A stretch of DNA of 23,303 nt, from the IMG/VR virus record IMGVR_UViG_3300032236_000706, positions 1 to 23,303 of that record, one strand, 5' to 3'. The notes under the pieces are model-generated. The model saw nothing but the letters and a program-made list of their open reading frames with translations. It ran no database searches and was not told the DNA's origin. Each line of letters starts with the position of its first letter. Position 1 is the stretch's first letter. Below are positions 12,001 through 22,928 of the stretch, piece after piece. The translations under genes were made by a program, and so were the position numbers. The stretch comes from a virus.

Positions 12001-12710
12001 CTTTTTTTAGACCATATTTTTTTGGTGTAATGGTTGATAATGGTTGTACCAAAGTGTTTATCTTCTAGTCTTTGATATTGACCATCTTTAAGGTAAGAGT
12101 ATTCGGCCTTCCAGTCTGAACGCTTAAAAGGAATAACCTGCACCATAGGCGTACCCTTTTCAAGTATTCCCTCAAAATCTGACTTAAACCAGACTGGGGG
12201 TAAAACCTCGATAGCGTTATTATCGGTATCTACTACAGCTGGTATAGCTTGAACGCCAGTCTGACGATAACCAAAGGGCGGTACAAACAGGCACGAGTAA
12301 CCTTTGGGAGTAATAATTCTCCACTGGTTCATAAACTTAAATACTTGATCGTCATAACCAACAGACGTCTGTACTTCTCGCGCTTGATCTCCGTGCTCTT
12401 GAAATACGTCTTGCTGTACGCGCCAGGTAAGCAATTTACCTCGTTCAGTTTTACGCACTTGAACGTCAGCCCACAAAGGAATTATGTATCCGCTAGTCAT
12501 AGCGTCAAGCATAGGTACGCACTTTTTAGCAGTCGTATTAGCTCTGCGATTTTCTAAAAGAAACTTTTTACCGTCAAAGTTATCGGGTGTTTTAACGTAC
12601 GGAGTCATAGCTCTCCACCAGTCAGGGACGGCCTGGCTTGCAGGATATGGGCGCTCAGCTACCTCCCAGCCATACTCGTCTCTAGCCTCAAACTTGATAA
12701 TCTGTTTCAT
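11991..12710 (-). CDS. Reverse-strand protein of a cyanophage-associated family, function unknown
   Basis: 239 residues. On the reverse strand, GGAGGCAAT directly precedes ATG at 12710. Motifs include VPDWWRAM (near residue 30), TTAKKCVPMLDAMTSGYIIPL (about 60-79), FMNQWRIITPKGYSCLFVPP, IPAVVDTDN and GTPMVQVIPFKRSDW. This combination is familiar from uncharacterised proteins of cyanophages and other marine and freshwater phages (a DUF6065-like family, from memory and not checked). It is the only reverse-strand gene in the virion block. It converges with the fibre accessory gene without a terminator between them and diverges from the tail hub gene across 26 bases. The stretch is AT-richer than its neighbours. 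It may be a later insertion related to host recognition or takeover. Confidence 0.8.
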   Translation of the reverse strand: MKQIIKFEARDEYGWEVAERPYPASQAVPDWWRAMTPYVKTPDNFDGKKFLLENRRANTTAKKCVPMLDAMTSGYIIPLWADVQVRKTERGKLLTWRVQQDVFQEHGDQAREVQTSVGYDDQVFKFMNQWRIITPKGYSCLFVPPFGYRQTGVQAIPAVVDTDNNAIEVLPPVWFKSDFEGILEKGTPMVQVIPFKRSDWKAEYSYLKDGQYQRLEDKHFGTTIINHYTKKIWSKKSYS

Positions 12711-15439: not shown

Positions 15440-15657
15440 TGTTAGAAAAGCTCTCACCTCAACTACGCCACGCTTTGATCGCTCTCCTCGGAGCAGTTTT
15501 CGCTGAAGGCGTGAAGTATGTCCACAGCTTGCACCTATCAACACCAGTACAAGCTATCGTCGGCGCAGTAATCGCTTCGCTTACCCTAGTTATTAGCCCA
15601 CTTACAAATCAGTACGGCATTACCGAGCTCAACGCTGACGGTACGCCTAAAGCCTAA
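15439..15657 (+). CDS. Holin (two transmembrane helices)
   Basis: 72 residues, with AAGAAGGAATA upstream and a TAATG overlap. Two hydrophobic helices lie at about residues 10-30 (HALIALLGAVFAEGVKYV) and 35-57 (TPVQAIVGAVIASLTLVISP), with short polar ends and a hydrophilic C-terminus (ITELNADGTPKA). Size and topology match class II holins that permeabilise the membrane for the amidase encoded two genes upstream. It is the last gene of the late block. A large hairpin follows. Confidence 0.8.
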   Translation: MLEKLSPQLRHALIALLGAVFAEGVKYVHSLHLSTPVQAIVGAVIASLTLVISPLTNQYGITELNADGTPKA

Positions 15658-15664
15658 AAATAAT

Positions 15665-15713
15665 GGACACTCCAGTCACGGTATTGCTTCCGCTGTACCG
15701 TGACGTGGACTCC
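15665..15713 (+). other. Large imperfect hairpin after the lysis genes
   Basis: A perfect 9-bp stem GTCACGGTA / TACCGTGAC (15675-15683 with 15696-15704, 12-base loop) is extended outward by TCCA/TGGA and GGA/TCC with small bulges, about 16 bp in all. It lies eight bases after the holin stop and just before the promoter-like element at 15727. There is no U-run on either strand, so it is not a standard intrinsic terminator. It could be an RNase III or 3'-end processing site, or a protein-binding repeat. Confidence 0.6.
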
Positions 15714-15726
15714 CAGGTAGACACTT

Positions 15727-15756
15727 TTGACCTGGCGTATGAAGGTCTGCTATAGC
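15727..15756 (+). promoter_or_regulatory. Putative sigma70-type promoter for the block from 15802
   Basis: TTGACC (15727-15732) and TATAGC (15751-15756) are separated by 18 bases, matching 5 of 6 and 4 of 6 consensus positions. The predicted start near 15763 leaves a leader of about 40 bases before ATG 15802. A small inverted repeat, CTATC/GATAG (about 15769-15790), lies in that leader. It is the first clear promoter after the late genes. Confidence 0.5.
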
Positions 15757-15801
15757 GTGTCTTAACTCTCTATCTCATATTTAGGGATAGACTCCGCTGC
15801 T

Positions 15802-16032
15802 ATGGACTTAGAAGCAGCTCTCAAAAAAAAGGCAACTGTTAAGAATCAGTGTCGAATCAGCACTCTTTTAGCTTCATTAGATGATAAAAACCGTAAAGCT
15901 CTTGAAGCAGCTATTAACAGCAATTTAAGCCCCTATGTTATTGCTCGAGCAGTTAAATCCGAGGGATTATCTCTTTCCGAAAACACAATCTACAAACACC
16001 GACGGAATGAGTGTATATGCGCGACAAAGTAG
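15802..16032 (+). CDS. Small helix-turn-helix DNA-binding protein
   Basis: 76 residues. The pattern is CRISTLLASLDDKNRKALEAA, then a predicted helix-turn-helix SPYVIARAVKSEGLSLSENTIYKHRRNEC at about residues 43-71. Small proteins with this layout (C-x(3)-L-L-x-x-L and a final tail of the type SENTIYKHRR) are common in actinophages and are usually labelled HTH or small-terminase-like. No good Shine-Dalgarno precedes ATG 15802 (GACTCCGCTGCT), so translation may be weak. It is the first gene of the block and overlaps the next gene, so it is a candidate regulator of it. A packaging role cannot be excluded. Confidence 0.65.
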   Translation: MDLEAALKKKATVKNQCRISTLLASLDDKNRKALEAAINSNLSPYVIARAVKSEGLSLSENTIYKHRRNECICATK

Positions 16033-17847: not shown

Positions 17848-17905
17848 ATTTCTGAAGTCAGTGTTTTACGTTGTCAAGTATTTTTATTTAACGGCGTGTC
17901 ACGTC

Positions 17906-18643: not shown

Positions 18644-18685
18644 AGTCTCCCACTCCTTACAGGACAGACACGCCCGACACGGTAG

Positions 18686-18714
18686 TTGCCAGGGTGTAAT
18701 TCTCGGGATAGATT
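18686..18714 (+). promoter_or_regulatory. Promoter of the replication/recombination operon
   Basis: TTGCCA (18686-18691) and TAGATT (18709-18714) are separated by 17 bases. The spacer and the -10 are overlapped by the inverted repeat at 18692-18720. The ten bases TTGCCAGGGT match the TTGACAGGGT of the promoter at 22858 at nine positions, so the two are probably used and controlled together. Confidence 0.6.
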
Positions 18715-18720
18715 ACACCC
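18692..18720. promoter_or_regulatory. Inverted repeat GGGTGTAAT-N11-ATTACACCC, candidate operator
   Basis: The 9-base arms are perfect complements (18692-18700 and 18712-18720) with an 11-base spacer. The repeat lies between two divergent genes (18643 reverse, 18760 forward) and over the forward promoter's spacer and -10. The half-sites recur at 22235-22249 and 22870-22884. A hairpin in the leader RNA is the alternative reading. Confidence 0.65.
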
Positions 18721-18759
18721 GACCGAGCCCAAAGGTGGCTCCTAAGAAATGAGGCAAAA

Positions 18760-19359
18760 ATGGCTCCAAACTACAAAGGCCCGCTGGACTATATCGACGT
18801 AGCTACACGGATCGTCGAGTTCCGCGAGAAGTTCCCTACTGGATCTCTCCAGCAAGTCAAGTACGAGTTCGTCCAGGTAGCAGGCAAAGACTGGATCGTC
18901 TACACAGCTGCAGCTTTCCGTACCCCAGACGATCTCCGTCCAGGAGTCGGCACAGCCTGGGAGCCAATCCCAGGGCCTACCAATTTCACCCGCGACTCAG
19001 AGGTGCAGAACGCGGAAACGGCTGCTTGGGGGAGGGCCATAGTTGCTGTTTTAGCAGCTGATACTCGTAAGGGTATTGCCAGCTCCGAGGAGGTTCGTAA
19101 CCGCCAGGAAAAGACAGCTGACGTTAAGCCAGCTCTGGCAGTAGTCCCAAAGCCTAAAGCTGCAGCTCGTACCTATACAGATGATGAACTGATCTACGGC
19201 GTGGCGATTATGGCTGAGATCGAAGTTACTACCGATCGCCAAAAGCTGCGTGAGCTCTGGACGCGGGAAAAAGATTTCCACGAAATGAAAGTCAATGGCA
19301 CCACAATTTTAGACGCGATCAACGCTAAGGCAGCGACACTTACAGAGGAGACAAAATGA
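18760..19359 (+). CDS. Putative single-strand annealing / Erf-like recombination protein
   Basis: 199 residues, with AAATGAGGCAAAA before the ATG. Residues about 10-115 read DYIDVATRIVEFREKFPTGS, then a strand region (IVYTAAAFRTPDD), WEPIPGPTNFTRDSEVQN and the helix AETAAWGRAIVAVLAADTRKGIAS. The A-E-T-A-A-W-G-R-A-I motif resembles the E-T-S-A-x-G-R-A-L helix of Erf/Rad52-type annealing proteins. A Pro/Ala/Lys linker (about 125-140) separates a short helical C-terminal domain. Its neighbours (Cas4-like nuclease, RusA resolvase, DUF1376 protein) fit a recombination role. Single-strand binding without annealing is a fair alternative. Confidence 0.55.
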   Translation: MAPNYKGPLDYIDVATRIVEFREKFPTGSLQQVKYEFVQVAGKDWIVYTAAAFRTPDDLRPGVGTAWEPIPGPTNFTRDSEVQNAETAAWGRAIVAVLAADTRKGIASSEEVRNRQEKTADVKPALAVVPKPKAAARTYTDDELIYGVAIMAEIEVTTDRQKLRELWTREKDFHEMKVNGTTILDAINAKAATLTEETK

Positions 19360-19598
19360 GCGACAAGCAAAAAAAGTTCGAGCCCTCAATGGGCTGGCTA
19401 GTAGCTATCCAGTATCAGCAGGTCGCAGTCGATCGTCTAGCTAAAGAGCTTAACCTCACTAACGTCGAAGTAGGCCAGGCGCTCGAGCGCTCTGGTTATC
19501 TACTTGAGCCAGATCCTTTCGGCTACAGCTCTGACACCTGGAAGGTGCTCGAGATCGAGAATCGTAAGCTCGCAGCTGTACCAGACGTCAATGAGTGA
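19356..19598 (+). CDS. Hypothetical protein
   Basis: 80 residues, ATGA overlap with the previous gene and AGAGGAGACAAA as Shine-Dalgarno. It is mostly helical (MGWLVAIQYQQVAVDRLAKE, LTNVEVGQALERSGYLL) and has no zinc or catalytic motif. The middle stretch (LAKELNLTNVEVGQALERSG) might be a small helix-turn-helix. Its role is unknown. It lies between the annealing-protein candidate and a coiled-coil protein and overlaps both. Confidence 0.7.
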   Translation: MSDKQKKFEPSMGWLVAIQYQQVAVDRLAKELNLTNVEVGQALERSGYLLEPDPFGYSSDTWKVLEIENRKLAAVPDVNE

Positions 19599-19959
19599 GC
19601 CAGTTACTACCCCTGGTGGGGTCGAGCGACAGCTAAAGAAGCTCAGCGATCTATTGGACGAGAGCCACACGGATCTAGTCGCAGCTGAGAATAACTACGC
19701 TATGACGAAATCGACGTACGAAATCGCACTAGCTAAATCTCGAATTGCACTAGCTTCTAAGTCAGCTCCTAACGGTAAGAATTACACCGTCCAGGAGCGA
19801 GAGGATATGGCGCTAATTGAAAACCAATTACTCCACGTCAAAATGGGAGAAGCTGACGCACTCGTCAAAGCTGCTCGAGCTAACTCGGTGAGGATTAAAA
19901 CTCAGATCGACTTAGCTCGATCAGTGGGGACTCTCGTACGAGCTGGTTTTGATTTATGA
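19591..19959 (+). CDS. Coiled-coil protein
   Basis: 122 residues from ATG 19591, which overlaps the previous gene's end. An in-frame start 87 bases upstream would lie deep inside that gene and adds an implausible N-terminus, so it is not used. The protein is almost entirely helical with heptad-like patterning (VERQLKKLSDLLDESHTDLV, AENNYAMTKSTYEIALAKSR, REDMALIENQLLHVKMGEA). This is typical of a small structural or adapter protein, perhaps binding a recombination enzyme from the same operon. No family was recognised. Confidence 0.7.
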   Translation: MSEPVTTPGGVERQLKKLSDLLDESHTDLVAAENNYAMTKSTYEIALAKSRIALASKSAPNGKNYTVQEREDMALIENQLLHVKMGEADALVKAARANSVRIKTQIDLARSVGTLVRAGFDL

Positions 19960-20111
19960 AGTTCAAGCGCGTCCGACGCAAAATGGAAAAGAAGCTCTCA
20001 AAGTTCGTCTGCGACAAATGCAAAGAGCGCTGGGCTGAAACAAAGAAAGCTAAACACGAGCCCTGCTTTGACTTTCTCGTAGCAATAGACATAGTTAGGA
20101 AAACAAAGTGA
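19956..20111 (+). CDS. Small zinc-finger protein (51 residues)
   Basis: The ATG overlaps the previous stop (ATGA) and the stop overlaps the next GTG. The protein is very basic at the start (MKFKRVRRKMEKKLSKF) and carries C19-x2-C22 followed by H34 and C37, a plausible C2HC zinc site. It could bind nucleic acid. Perfect coupling to both neighbours supports it despite the short length. Confidence 0.65.
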   Translation: MKFKRVRRKMEKKLSKFVCDKCKERWAETKKAKHEPCFDFLVAIDIVRKTK

Positions 20112-20365
20112 ATCAAATTGCTATGCACGATCAAGTTTTAACCTATATCCAAAATGACTCGCTGCACACAGAAATCGACGGTGGCCTGAGCTTTGAGATC
20201 CTGGCTCACCAGTTCGAGCATTACTGGCGCCAGCGGATCGCTCGAGAGCTCGACTTCTTAGAAGAGCCTACGAAGATCAGCTCCGATTATTACAACGCTG
20301 CTCGACGGACTAAGACAGCTGCAATAGCTATAGCTGCGAAAGGACTTCCTGGTGGACTTCTCTAA
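20108..20365 (+). CDS. Hypothetical protein
   Basis: 85 residues from GTG 20108, overlapping the preceding TGA. An alternative ATG five codons later would also work. The sequence (DQVLTYIQNDSLHTEIDGGL, then HQFEHYWRQRIARELDFLEE) is helical and charged, ending with an Ala-rich helix (ARRTKTAAIAIAAKGLPGG). It overlaps the nuclease gene by 14 bases. No function can be read from it. The helical layout would fit a small adapter or a regulator. Confidence 0.65.
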   Translation: MNQIAMHDQVLTYIQNDSLHTEIDGGLSFEILAHQFEHYWRQRIARELDFLEEPTKISSDYYNAARRTKTAAIAIAAKGLPGGLL

Positions 20366-21020
20366 CCTGCTTGCTAAGTCGCTGACGGCTTACGACAATT
20401 CCAGGGATCGTTCGACTCAGGTGGAAATCGGGCCATCACAAATCGGAGGCTGTCGGCGCCAGGTTTATCACCAGCTAGTCGGTACACCTGAGACCAATCC
20501 CAATACAGAAGCTCTAGCTGCGATCCTGGGTACTTTTATCCACGCAGGTATAGCTGAGGCCATCAAGCGAGAAGATCCGTTCGGTGACAACTTCTTAATC
20601 GAGCAGGAGTTCGCAGCTGGTGATCTCAAAGGTCACGTCGATCTCTATATCAAAGATCAGAAAACGATCGTGGACTGGAAAACGACAAAGCTCAAGTCGC
20701 TGCGTTACTTTCCGTCAGCTCAACAGCGTATGCAAGTACAGATTTACGGCTGGCTGTTATCAGCTAACGGCTACGAAGTAGAAAACGTAGCTCTCGTAGC
20801 TGTACCTCGTGACGGTGAAATGGCTCAGATCAAAACTCACGTCGAGATCTACGATCCAGAGATAGCTAAACAAGGCCTAGCCTGGTTAGCAGACGTTAAA
20901 GCTCTCGCTCTCTCCAGCGAGTCGCCACCAGCTCCAGAGAAGGACGCACTATTCTGCGTCAATTACTGCAGCTATTACGACGCGACAGGAGAAGTGGGTT
21001 GCCCGAGTACACGGAAATAA
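20352..21020 (+). CDS. Cas4-like PD-(D/E)XK exonuclease with Fe-S cysteines
   Basis: 222 residues from GTG 20352. Motifs in order: a first cysteine in IGGCRRQVYH (C34), H64 in GTFIHAGI, D97 in GHVDLYI, D108-W-K110 in IVDWKTT, and the QVQIYGW helix, then three C-terminal cysteines (C202, C206 and C217). One N-terminal and three C-terminal cysteines around a RecB-type nuclease core is the Cas4/AddB-type 4Fe-4S arrangement. It would resect DNA ends 5'-3', providing single strands for an annealing protein such as the one encoded at 18760-19359. No CRISPR genes are nearby, so this is a phage recombination nuclease. It overlaps the WhiB gene. Confidence 0.85.
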   Translation: MDFSNLLAKSLTAYDNSRDRSTQVEIGPSQIGGCRRQVYHQLVGTPETNPNTEALAAILGTFIHAGIAEAIKREDPFGDNFLIEQEFAAGDLKGHVDLYIKDQKTIVDWKTTKLKSLRYFPSAQQRMQVQIYGWLLSANGYEVENVALVAVPRDGEMAQIKTHVEIYDPEIAKQGLAWLADVKALALSSESPPAPEKDALFCVNYCSYYDATGEVGCPSTRK

Positions 21021-21331
21021 ACTGGAAAGACGCAGCCTGCGCTGGTATGGACGTCGAAGTCTTTTACAGGCTCGAGGAGATTAGATACCCAGATCCTGAG
21101 ATCTACATTAAACCTCTTAGAGCTCTATGCGCTTCTTGCCCATTATGGAAAAGCTGTTTATCGTATGCAGCTTCTCACGAGTTTTACGGCTGGTGGGGTG
21201 GTATGGATACGACGGAGCGCCAGGCGCTTATTAACGGTGGCAGGACAGCCACCAGGCTTAGGGTGTACGAGGACTTTGAGCAGCTAGGGATAACTCGGTC
21301 AATGATCCACGAGGCTTTGGAGGAAAGATGA
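20999..21331 (+). CDS. WhiB-family Fe-S transcriptional regulator
   Basis: 110 residues. The start is TTG 20999, supported by AGGAG at 20987-20991, with no in-frame ATG upstream or close by. Cysteines C14, C44, C47 and C53 form the WhiB 4Fe-4S set (ACAG, then CASCPLWKSC), followed by the G-W-W-G-G signature (64-68) and MDTTER. A basic helix-containing C-terminus follows. WhiB proteins are confined to actinobacteria and their phages, where phage copies can interfere with host WhiB regulators. It is also a candidate controller of the phage promoters nearby. The overlap with the Cas4-like gene is 22 bases. Confidence 0.9.
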   Translation: MPEYTEINWKDAACAGMDVEVFYRLEEIRYPDPEIYIKPLRALCASCPLWKSCLSYAASHEFYGWWGGMDTTERQALINGGRTATRLRVYEDFEQLGITRSMIHEALEER

Positions 21332-21453
21332 AGAATAAAAAAGAAATGTCGATTGACGAGGTTGCCTGGCTGATGTTTTTAGACACTCCTTTCGTCGAAG
21401 TAATCGGGTTTTTATCTACGATAGATTACAAAATTAAGATCGTAAAGAAATGA
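21328..21453 (+). CDS. Small hypothetical protein (41 residues)
   Basis: ATG overlaps the WhiB stop (ATGA) and the end overlaps the next ATG in the same way. GGAGGAAAG lies immediately upstream. The peptide (MKNKKEMSIDEVAWLMFLDT, then PFVEVIGFLSTIDYKIKIVKK) is hydrophobic in the middle with basic ends. Coupling and a strong ribosome-binding site support it. Function is unknown. Confidence 0.65.
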   Translation: MKNKKEMSIDEVAWLMFLDTPFVEVIGFLSTIDYKIKIVKK

Positions 21454-22220
21454 CGTCACTGCCATATATGCAGCTGTACACCTCGGACTACCTGGCTGAT
21501 ACAGCTCACCTCACCACAGAAGAGCACGGCGCTTACCTGCTGCTGCTAATGAATTACTGGCAACGCGGGAAACCGTTAGATAACACTGACGGTCGCCTGG
21601 CACACGTCGCTCGTTTATCAGCTGAACGCTGGAAAGCTGTTGAGCCAATCCTTGCTGAGTTTTTTATGATCGAGGGTACGACCTGGGTTCAAGCCAGGAT
21701 CGAGCGCGATCTTGACAAGATCCGAGACAAATCAAGCAAATTGGCAGCAAATGGTTCAATCGGTGGAAGCAAAAGGCAAGCAAATGCTAAGCAATTGCCA
21801 ATATATGAAGAAGAAGAGGAAGATAAAGAAGAAGATGAAGATAATAAAAAGACTTCTTCATTCGACGCTTTCTGGACTGCTTATCCACGCAAGACTGCTA
21901 AAGGCGCTGCTACTGCTGCCTGGGTTAAAGCTCTTAAGAAAGCTACAGCTGAGGAAATCATCAAAGCTGCACACGCCTACCGTGACGACCCTAACCGTGA
22001 CGAAGGTTTTACGGCTCACGCAAGCACCTGGCTCAATCAGGAGAGATGGCTAGATGGCCCTTTGCCTCAAAAAAGCCTTCCAGCAGGGTCTAGAGGCTCT
22101 GACACGAGGCCGACAGTGTTACCACCTCGGTATAGCGCAGATGAGGCTCCTAAAGGCTCTCCAATGCCAGAAAATATCCGACAGCTTCTCGGTGTGTCTG
22201 AGCGCACACAGATTACTTAA
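21450..22220 (+). CDS. DUF1376-type replication protein
   Basis: 256 residues. The N-terminal domain (about 1-90) matches DUF1376: MQLYTSDYLADTAHLTTEEHG-like start, AYLLLLMNYWQRGKPLDN, then RLSAERWKAVEPILAEFF. An acidic linker rich in Glu and Asp (about 118-132) follows. The C-terminal domain opens FDAFWTAYPRKTAKGAA and ends FTAHASTWLNQERWLDGP, the usual pair in phage replication-organiser proteins. It probably recruits the replicative helicase or marks the origin. The ATG overlaps the preceding small gene. A candidate operator (22235-22249) separates it from the next gene. Confidence 0.8.
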   Translation: MTSLPYMQLYTSDYLADTAHLTTEEHGAYLLLLMNYWQRGKPLDNTDGRLAHVARLSAERWKAVEPILAEFFMIEGTTWVQARIERDLDKIRDKSSKLAANGSIGGSKRQANAKQLPIYEEEEEDKEEDEDNKKTSSFDAFWTAYPRKTAKGAATAAWVKALKKATAEEIIKAAHAYRDDPNRDEGFTAHASTWLNQERWLDGPLPQKSLPAGSRGSDTRPTVLPPRYSADEAPKGSPMPENIRQLLGVSERTQIT

Positions 22221-22234
22221 ATGCTGTACCCTTA

Positions 22235-22249
22235 CAGTAATCATTACAC
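22235..22249. promoter_or_regulatory. Second copy of the GTAAY-C-RTTAC palindrome
   Basis: CAGTAAT-C-ATTACAC contains the perfect 11-base palindrome GTAATCATTAC. It aligns with the site at 22870-22884 at 11 of 15 positions, including the central C. It lies 15 bases before ATG 22265. The -35 and -10 around it are weak. Confidence 0.5.
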
Positions 22250-22264
22250 CCAGACGGAGGAATA

Positions 22265-22447
22265 ATGACAAAGCTCGTAGCTCCAGCAGCTGTTCAGTAC
22301 GGCGACCAGGTGTCTATCAACGGACACGCCTGGATCGTCAAAGAAGTCTCAGGCCCAGACAGTATCGGCACCTACGATTTCTACCTCACTGACGGTCAAG
22401 CTGAAAAGCACGAAGTCGTCGCTGACGTGGTGACACTCGTACTTTAA
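22265..22447 (+). CDS. Small hypothetical beta-rich protein
   Basis: 60 residues with CGGAGGAATA just before ATG. The sequence (VQYGDQVSINGHAWIVKEVS, then GTYDFYLTDGQAEKHEVVAD) alternates strands and turns and looks like a small SH3-like barrel. No catalytic motif is visible. The second candidate operator lies directly upstream, so its expression may be controlled separately from the operon before it. Confidence 0.7.
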   Translation: MTKLVAPAAVQYGDQVSINGHAWIVKEVSGPDSIGTYDFYLTDGQAEKHEVVADVVTLVL

Positions 22448-22464
22448 CCTGCAATACTTACGCG

Positions 22465-22833
22465 GTGATTAGCTTCCGCGTAGACGGCCTTCCAGTCCCC
22501 CAGGGGTCTATGAAGGTTATTCACGGACGCGTAATCCATAGCCAGGGCTCAGCTCTGGCTGTCTGGCGCTCTACTATTGGCTATGCAGCTAAAGCTCAAC
22601 ACGCAAAGCTGATCGAAGGCCCAGTAGCTATGAAGCTTGATTTTTATATGCTCAAGCCACGCACGGTAAAGCGCGATACGCCGACCGTCCCACCAGACCT
22701 CGATAAGCTGATCCGAGCAGTATTAGACGCTTTAACTGGAATTGTCTATCTTGACGACGCCCAGGTGGTCGAGATCCACAGCTCTAAAAGCTACGGCGAG
22801 CCTGGCCTGGATCTCACAATCTCCCAAAAATAA
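22465..22833 (+). CDS. RusA-family Holliday junction resolvase
   Basis: 122 residues from GTG 22465. No good Shine-Dalgarno is seen, so expression may be low. The family motifs are clear: FRVDGLPVPQGSMKV at the start and PDLDKLIRAVLDALTGIVYLDDAQVVEI in outline, with D78, D80, K81, D88 and D98 in the catalytic positions. RusA proteins are dimeric endonucleases that cut four-way junctions made during phage recombination and replication. Length (about 120) is normal. With the Cas4-like nuclease and annealing candidate it completes a recombination pathway. Confidence 0.9.
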   Translation: MISFRVDGLPVPQGSMKVIHGRVIHSQGSALAVWRSTIGYAAKAQHAKLIEGPVAMKLDFYMLKPRTVKRDTPTVPPDLDKLIRAVLDALTGIVYLDDAQVVEIHSSKSYGEPGLDLTISQK

Positions 22834-22857
22834 ATTAAAAAATATCTTGCAACCTGC

Positions 22858-22885
22858 TTGACAGGGTAGGTGTAACCGTTACACT
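22858..22885 (+). promoter_or_regulatory. Strong promoter for the genes from 22929
   Basis: A perfect TTGACA (22858-22863) and TACACT (22880-22885, fitting the actinobacterial TANNNT) are separated by 16 bases. The palindrome GTGTAAC-C-GTTACAC (22870-22884) covers the spacer and most of the -10, so a bound protein would block the polymerase. The bases before it are AT-rich (about 22827-22846). Confidence 0.75.
22870..22884. promoter_or_regulatory. Operator palindrome GTGTAAC-C-GTTACAC
   Basis: This is a perfect 7-bp inverted repeat around a single C, overlapping the -10 of the promoter above. It is the best of the three related sites in this window and has the geometry of a repressor operator. 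Confidence 0.7.
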
Positions 22886-22928
22886 TAGAGACGTAGGGGC
22901 AGGAACCCCGACAGAAAGCAGGAAAAAA

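Follow-up and report, generated by a model that had tools for sequence, protein, structure and literature searches.

We analysed an actinophage sequence, virus record IMGVR_UViG_3300032236_000706 (23.3 kb; the whole stretch is referred to as the window), in which a short palindrome, GTAA-N3-TTAC (consensus YGTAAKCATTACR), stands ahead of an operon encoding a 60-amino-acid protein and a RusA-like Holliday junction resolvase. The palindrome is kept at this place in 21 of 22 clusters of divergent relatives. We believe, with a probability of about 0.72 and judging from sequence, that a phage-encoded dimeric repressor has its operator here and that a small HTH_17 protein is the likeliest binder. 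Very little is known of gene timing in uncultured freshwater-type actinophages, and a well-conserved site, found at one to three promoters per genome and with few phage proteins as candidates for binding it, opens the subject to direct tests. If the proposal is true, a dedicated switch is kept ahead of the resolvase operon in a phage family that carries WhiB and mostly lacks an integrase.

A conserved palindrome ahead of the rusA operon

The original prediction had picked out three related inverted repeats in the window, all intergenic and each standing before the start of an operon. The three are present where it had placed them (Table 1): site 1, GTGTAAT-N11-ATTACAC; site 2, CAGTAAT-C-ATTACAC (22235–22249); and site 3, GTGTAAC-C-GTTACAC. 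Each lies between genes and ahead of a start codon, as had been proposed. GTGTAAY and RTTACAC separated by 1–11 bases occurred at two places in the window, and 100 shuffles gave 0.00; RTTACAC occurred 13 times where 4.5 ± 2.1 were expected. The sites are nevertheless not equivalent, since comparison of related sequences finds site 2 to be deeply conserved, site 3 to be probable and site 1 to be conserved as a half-site only.

The outer arms of site 2 are imperfect (CAG versus CAC); its symmetry is limited to the inner 11 bases, GTAAT-C-ATTAC, and its true core is the 11-mer GTAATCATTAC. Taken alone this core is not rare in a single genome, where 4 matches with no more than one mismatch were found and 2.0 would be expected, so that relatives have to decide and the force of the finding lies in conservation among them. 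We gathered relatives by three queries, namely the protein of the gene starting at 18760 (gene 18760), RusA and an alignment of the 60-residue protein, and sorted the sequences upstream of the 60-residue gene into 22 clusters less than 70% alike. GTAA-N3-TTAC was present upstream of this gene, which is followed by the RusA gene, in 21 of the 22, compared with a shuffle rate of 0.0039. The three central bases vary (TCA, GCA, CTG, CGG, TGA, TTA) and the flanks have diverged while the orthologous position is kept, the pattern looked for in an operator. As a sequence element site 2 holds up: it is well conserved, and its specificity goes beyond what the original prediction could know.

Counted from the start codon of the 60-residue gene, the palindrome stands at −43 to −49, at −24 to −31 or at both, and these two registers are fixed. 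Both are filled, with copies 18–20 bp apart, in L058–L079-type relatives, L087–L089, L093 and L095, and the one exceptional cluster, L094, has one-mismatch copies at both. Many relatives of ∼39 kb (G019, G020, G021, G024, G025 and G027) hold exactly one copy in the whole record, and this single copy adjoins the 60-residue gene in every case in which the record or the locus was inspected.

In the window a probable −10 element, TACCCT, lies upstream of site 2, and would put the putative operator at about +1 to +11; −10-like elements occur at a similar offset in relatives (TAACCT, TATCAT, TATCCT, TACAAT). The position of GTAA-N3-TTAC relative to the −10 varies by lineage. It falls on the −10 in some (in L172, TTGCTC-N17-TACACT), and in others, the window included, just after a −10-like TACCCT, TATCCT or TACAAT. 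Steric repression tolerates a shifted operator position, whereas activation usually does not; the variable placement therefore favours a repressor acting by occlusion over an activator.

Half-sites at two further promoters

Site 3 overlaps the −10 of a sigma-70-like promoter behind rusA. In close relatives the promoter elements TTGAC(A/T) and TACACT/TACATT/TACAGT are kept and the motif GGTGTAACCRTTACA is retained, the spacer changing only towards its 5′ end. The intact palindrome is limited to these close relatives, with half-sites elsewhere: in distant relatives a full or half-site was found behind rusA in 9 of 14 clusters, against 8.8% of shuffles (rate 0.088; P = 4e-7). Site 3 is probably an operator. 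In G007 (L132, reverse strand) the whole module of promoter, operator and leader is duplicated ∼0.75 kb apart, at 12160 and 12916, upstream of different small genes.

Site 1 lies in the promoter of gene 18760. It is possible, though we doubt it, that this is a mere promoter whose −10 region happens to contain ATTAC, the N11 dyad having arisen by chance. The left half of the dyad is lost in L007 and the right half mutated in L008–L012, all of which retain the −10 TAnnnT, as do the other close relatives; what is kept is thus the −10. Among 12 divergent clusters the N11 dyad was found in one and not in the other 11, and we rejected it as a conserved second spacing class. Against a mere promoter, a half-site in either orientation is present at the gene-18760 promoter in 11 of the 12 clusters (shuffle rate 0.154; P = 1e-8), and control words were less enriched (P = 0.19 and 0.02). 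These binomial P-values treat clusters as independent and are hence optimistic.

The original prediction had suggested that a single dimeric regulator could bind all three sites, reaching N1 and N11 forms on the same face of the helix because their spacers differ by about one turn. Because the N11 dyad is not kept, the helical-turn mechanism finds no backing in evolution, and the N1/N11 dyad form fails with it. One regulator acting on three operons nevertheless remains plausible, because in relatives the half-site is common to all three promoters, as a full palindrome at the 60-residue/rusA operon and as half-sites at the other two; at the half-site level the comparison supports a three-promoter regulon. 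GTAAT-containing words also rank near the top of the family's enriched intergenic 6-mers, beside ribosome-binding-site words. Two of the three sites do overlap promoter-like hexamers, as had been stated, but the string TTG(A/C)CAGGGT said to begin these promoters is not conserved, relatives having TTGACTCTGG and TTGACACTAG instead.

A putative phage repressor and competing explanations

In the model that we favour, GTAA-N3-TTAC would be bound by a phage-encoded dimeric repressor that times early or middle transcription in this actinophage family, whose members are of ∼39 kb and mostly virulent. Full palindromes, single or as a tandem O1/O2 pair, would cover the −10 or start point of the SH3-like/RusA promoter. 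The same half-site at the gene-18760 promoter and behind rusA would place both of those operons under the same factor, through weaker or single-half binding. The sites themselves, their conservation and placement, and the excess of half-sites at the other two promoters are observed; that a protein binds these sites, that its binding represses and that one protein serves all of them is what we infer.

DNA-binding candidates common across the family are WhiB (20 genomes), the phrog_1738 helix-turn-helix protein (20) and an HTH_17 (MerR/Xis-like) protein of 60–63 residues (15). The last would be the likeliest binder. Its gene lies downstream of promoter 3, beyond the window end, and overlaps the gene for SSB, with which it would be co-translated; the protein is basic (pI 9.7). 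Its segment NNLRQ(I/L/M)Q(H/Y)R is near-invariant whereas the phrog_1738 helix varies, and we favour it because this invariance goes in step with that of GTAA/TTAC, which is a correlation only. WhiB, the phrog_1738 protein and a host factor are its rivals as binder. WhiB also occurs in cultured Planktophila phages, which are of comparable size (PMC10202952).

Several points weigh against this model. The choice of HTH_17 rests on presence across genomes and on conservation, and WhiB equals it on presence. The sites that MerR-type domains usually recognise, dyads or direct repeats, are spaced differently. Operator and repressor are both putative, the model having been built from sequence. The promoters are consensus matches only, a scan of the region giving 8 promoter-like sites against 6.6 in shuffles. 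Finally, the half-site is only 6 bp long, and the RTTAC signal could partly stem from −10 elements (TACACT); many half-sites stand in the orientation opposite to this −10 reading.

A host transcription factor might instead bind the sites and be exploited or sensed by the phage, which we consider improbable. Early promoters of phages are frequent targets of host factors, the site resembles host operators in being short and symmetrical, and the phage protein that binds it is still only a candidate. One bacterial metagenome-assembled genome has a contig that carries a relative (L201), and the actinobacterial order of this genome was used for a host test. Of 166 genomes of the order, 1 contained GTGTAAYNRTTACAC; of 99, 3 contained CGTAATNATTACG, and one of the latter sites belonged to the phage contig itself. 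Both were at or below the reversed control pattern. The want of any excess of sites weighs against a host regulon in this one order, which may not host all relatives.

It is less probable still that the site is no transcriptional operator but serves the adjacent DUF1376 initiator as part of a replication origin. It does follow directly on the initiator gene, in the window and in the family, and usually occupies one locus per genome. There are only one or two copies, however, and no iteron array; GC skew has no consistent reversal at the site in seven long relatives; and in close relatives the palindrome recurs 0.6–1.4 kb away within a sigma-70-like promoter, twice in G007. The absence of skew reversal and this recurrence inside promoters led us to reject an origin element. 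Autoregulation by the 60-residue protein, suggested by the strict linkage of the site to its gene and its frequent absence from the rest of the genome, is very unlikely, since a protein that is acidic in all 31 members and confidently predicted to be an EF-P/eIF5A-like SH3 barrel with neither helix-turn-helix nor ribbon-helix-helix is unlikely to read DNA, and the window protein has no Pfam match above cut-off.

Returning to the repressor–operator model, the arrangement resembles lambda-type OR/OL in its short palindromes, tandem in several lineages, that overlap a putative promoter −10 or start. It differs in its 11-bp core, in being confined mostly to one locus per genome and in the absence of HTH_3 (CI/Cro-type) matches from 13 long relatives. 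A tyrosine integrase is present in 2 of these 13 and absent from 11, serine integrases not having been searched for. On these counts we rejected a CI-type lysogeny immunity operator; few tyrosine integrases and no HTH_3 point to lytic timing control rather than immunity. A bolder proposal is speculative at this stage: in mostly virulent actinophages an orphan HTH_17 protein, produced together with SSB, would be a dedicated repressor with no part in lysogeny, and would gate resolvase and recombination genes from one ancient operator that is often in tandem. Its extreme form, in which the acidic SH3-like protein, which has no known DNA-binding fold, joins in its own repression, is unlikely.

Fur-family boxes have a 7-1-7 format, which GTGTAAC-C-GTTACAC shares, but in this family conservation is limited to the 4-3-4 core and does not extend to the outer bases; inspection of the window and of genes of relatives, with no profile search for Fur, showed no Fur-like protein. 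MtrA-type direct repeats (GTAAC-like) were rejected because the conserved form here is inverted, and no GTAAC palindrome came out of a literature search. Cluster A mycobacteriophage stoperators (PMC9283540, PMC6550527) provide a precedent for an actinophage operator at more than one promoter. However, stoperators are described as asymmetric, genome-wide and bound by a monomeric immunity repressor (PMC9283540); the present site is palindromic, confined to one to three promoters and single-copy in many long relatives, so that a stoperator was rejected too. The best-studied relative type of the favoured HTH_17 candidate is BldC. At 60–63 residues the candidate resembles such small MerR-like proteins, being too short for the MerR coiled coil and effector domain, but BldC binds direct repeats as cooperative multimers (PMC5859096), unlike the inverted repeat conserved here. 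The promoter spacers, at 16–17 bp, likewise differ from the 19–20-bp spacer that holds a MerR dyad. The statement that no known operator has this form agrees with our searches, which found no report of the tested strings as a phage operator: published texts containing GTAATCATTAC were unrelated, as judged by title and abstract, and degenerate forms gave none.

Neighbouring genes and other promoter-region motifs

The right half of the window carries an exonuclease-like gene, the phrog_23738 gene (gene 18760), and genes for WhiB, the DUF1376 initiator, the 60-residue protein and RusA (Table 1). Homologues of gene 18760 occur in 19–20 family genomes, and in our own reading its product may be of a putative single-strand annealing or recombination type.

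Table 1. Coordinates of genes, promoters and candidate operators in the window
Feature	Coordinates	Strand	Basis and remarks
76-residue helix-turn-helix-like protein, phrog_1738; rival regulator	15802..16032	+	PHROG assignment; in 20 genomes, recognition segment variable
Promoter TTGCCA-N17-TAGATT containing site 1	18686..18714	+	Consensus match; TAnnnT kept in relatives
Site 1, GTGTAAT-N11-ATTACAC	18694..18718		Dyad in close clade only; at least one half-site in every close relative
199-residue protein, phrog_23738 (no functional annotation)	18760..19359	+	PHROG match, E 2e-57; first gene of operon behind site 1
WhiB-like protein; rival regulator	20999..21331	+	Pfam WhiB, E 1e-11; in 20/21 genomes compared
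DUF1376-type replication initiation/primosomal protein, directly upstream of site 2	21450..22220	+	Pfam DUF1376, E 9e-25; PHROG primosomal protein, E 7e-44
Probable −10 TACCCT upstream of site 2	22227..22232	+	Read from sequence
Site 2 core, putative operator GTAAT-C-ATTAC, register O2, 17 nt before 60-residue start codon	22237..22247		Conservation in relatives
60-residue SH3-like beta-barrel protein, first gene after site 2	22265..22447	+	Open reading frame; 31-member alignment; AlphaFold2 pLDDT 96.2
RusA-like Holliday junction resolvase, same operon as 60-residue gene	22465..22833	+	PHROG 140, E 7e-27
Promoter TTGACA-N16-TACACT carrying site 3, sigma-70-like	22858..22885	+	10/12 consensus positions
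Site 3, probable operator GTGTAAC-C-GTTACAC, overlapping −10	22870..22884		Core kept in L082, L084–L086 and G004; second promoter copy in G007

The predicted fold of the 60-residue protein matches EF-P/eIF5A-like domains (best E 6e-3), and tblastn gave no match to it among 50,697 phage records (named phage isolates). Its 31 members have pI values of 4.2–5.8 (median 4.6) and net charges of −2 to −6. Acidic proteins of 60–62 residues with this SH3 barrel form a family present in 21 of the 21 genomes compared.

Another inverted repeat, of ∼8 bp per arm (TCACGGTA...TACCGTGA, 15680–15707), lies between a gene ending at 15657 and the phrog_1738 gene, and is partly altered in relatives.

The promoters of gene 18760 and site 3 are both followed by a short 5′-leader hairpin (18725–18741 and 22896–22909, respectively), which in relatives occupies the same place and differs in sequence, with stems GGGG-CCCC, GAGCC-GGCTC, GAGCT-AGCTC and GGGCT-AGCCC. 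This suggests a conserved leader stem–loop; fold z-scores, obtained from single sequences and with three of the folded stretches cut at or off the hairpin, ranged from +0.5 to −3.9.

Another motif found between genes is GACACGC/GCGTGTC, which in relatives has CGAC[A/T]CGCC variants. It occurs at 18666–18681, 17893–17900 and 15755–15761 and in the gene-18760 promoters of relatives; at the gene-18760 promoter it stands just upstream of the −35. GAC[A/T]CGC was found in 5 of 12 clusters compared with 1.9% in shuffles, and across the family GACACGC is ∼3.6-fold denser between genes than within them. Within it lies GACAC, which in Streptomyces is the WhiA motif (PMC3781837); WhiA acts with WhiB in that genus (PMC4850268), and these phages encode a WhiB of their own.

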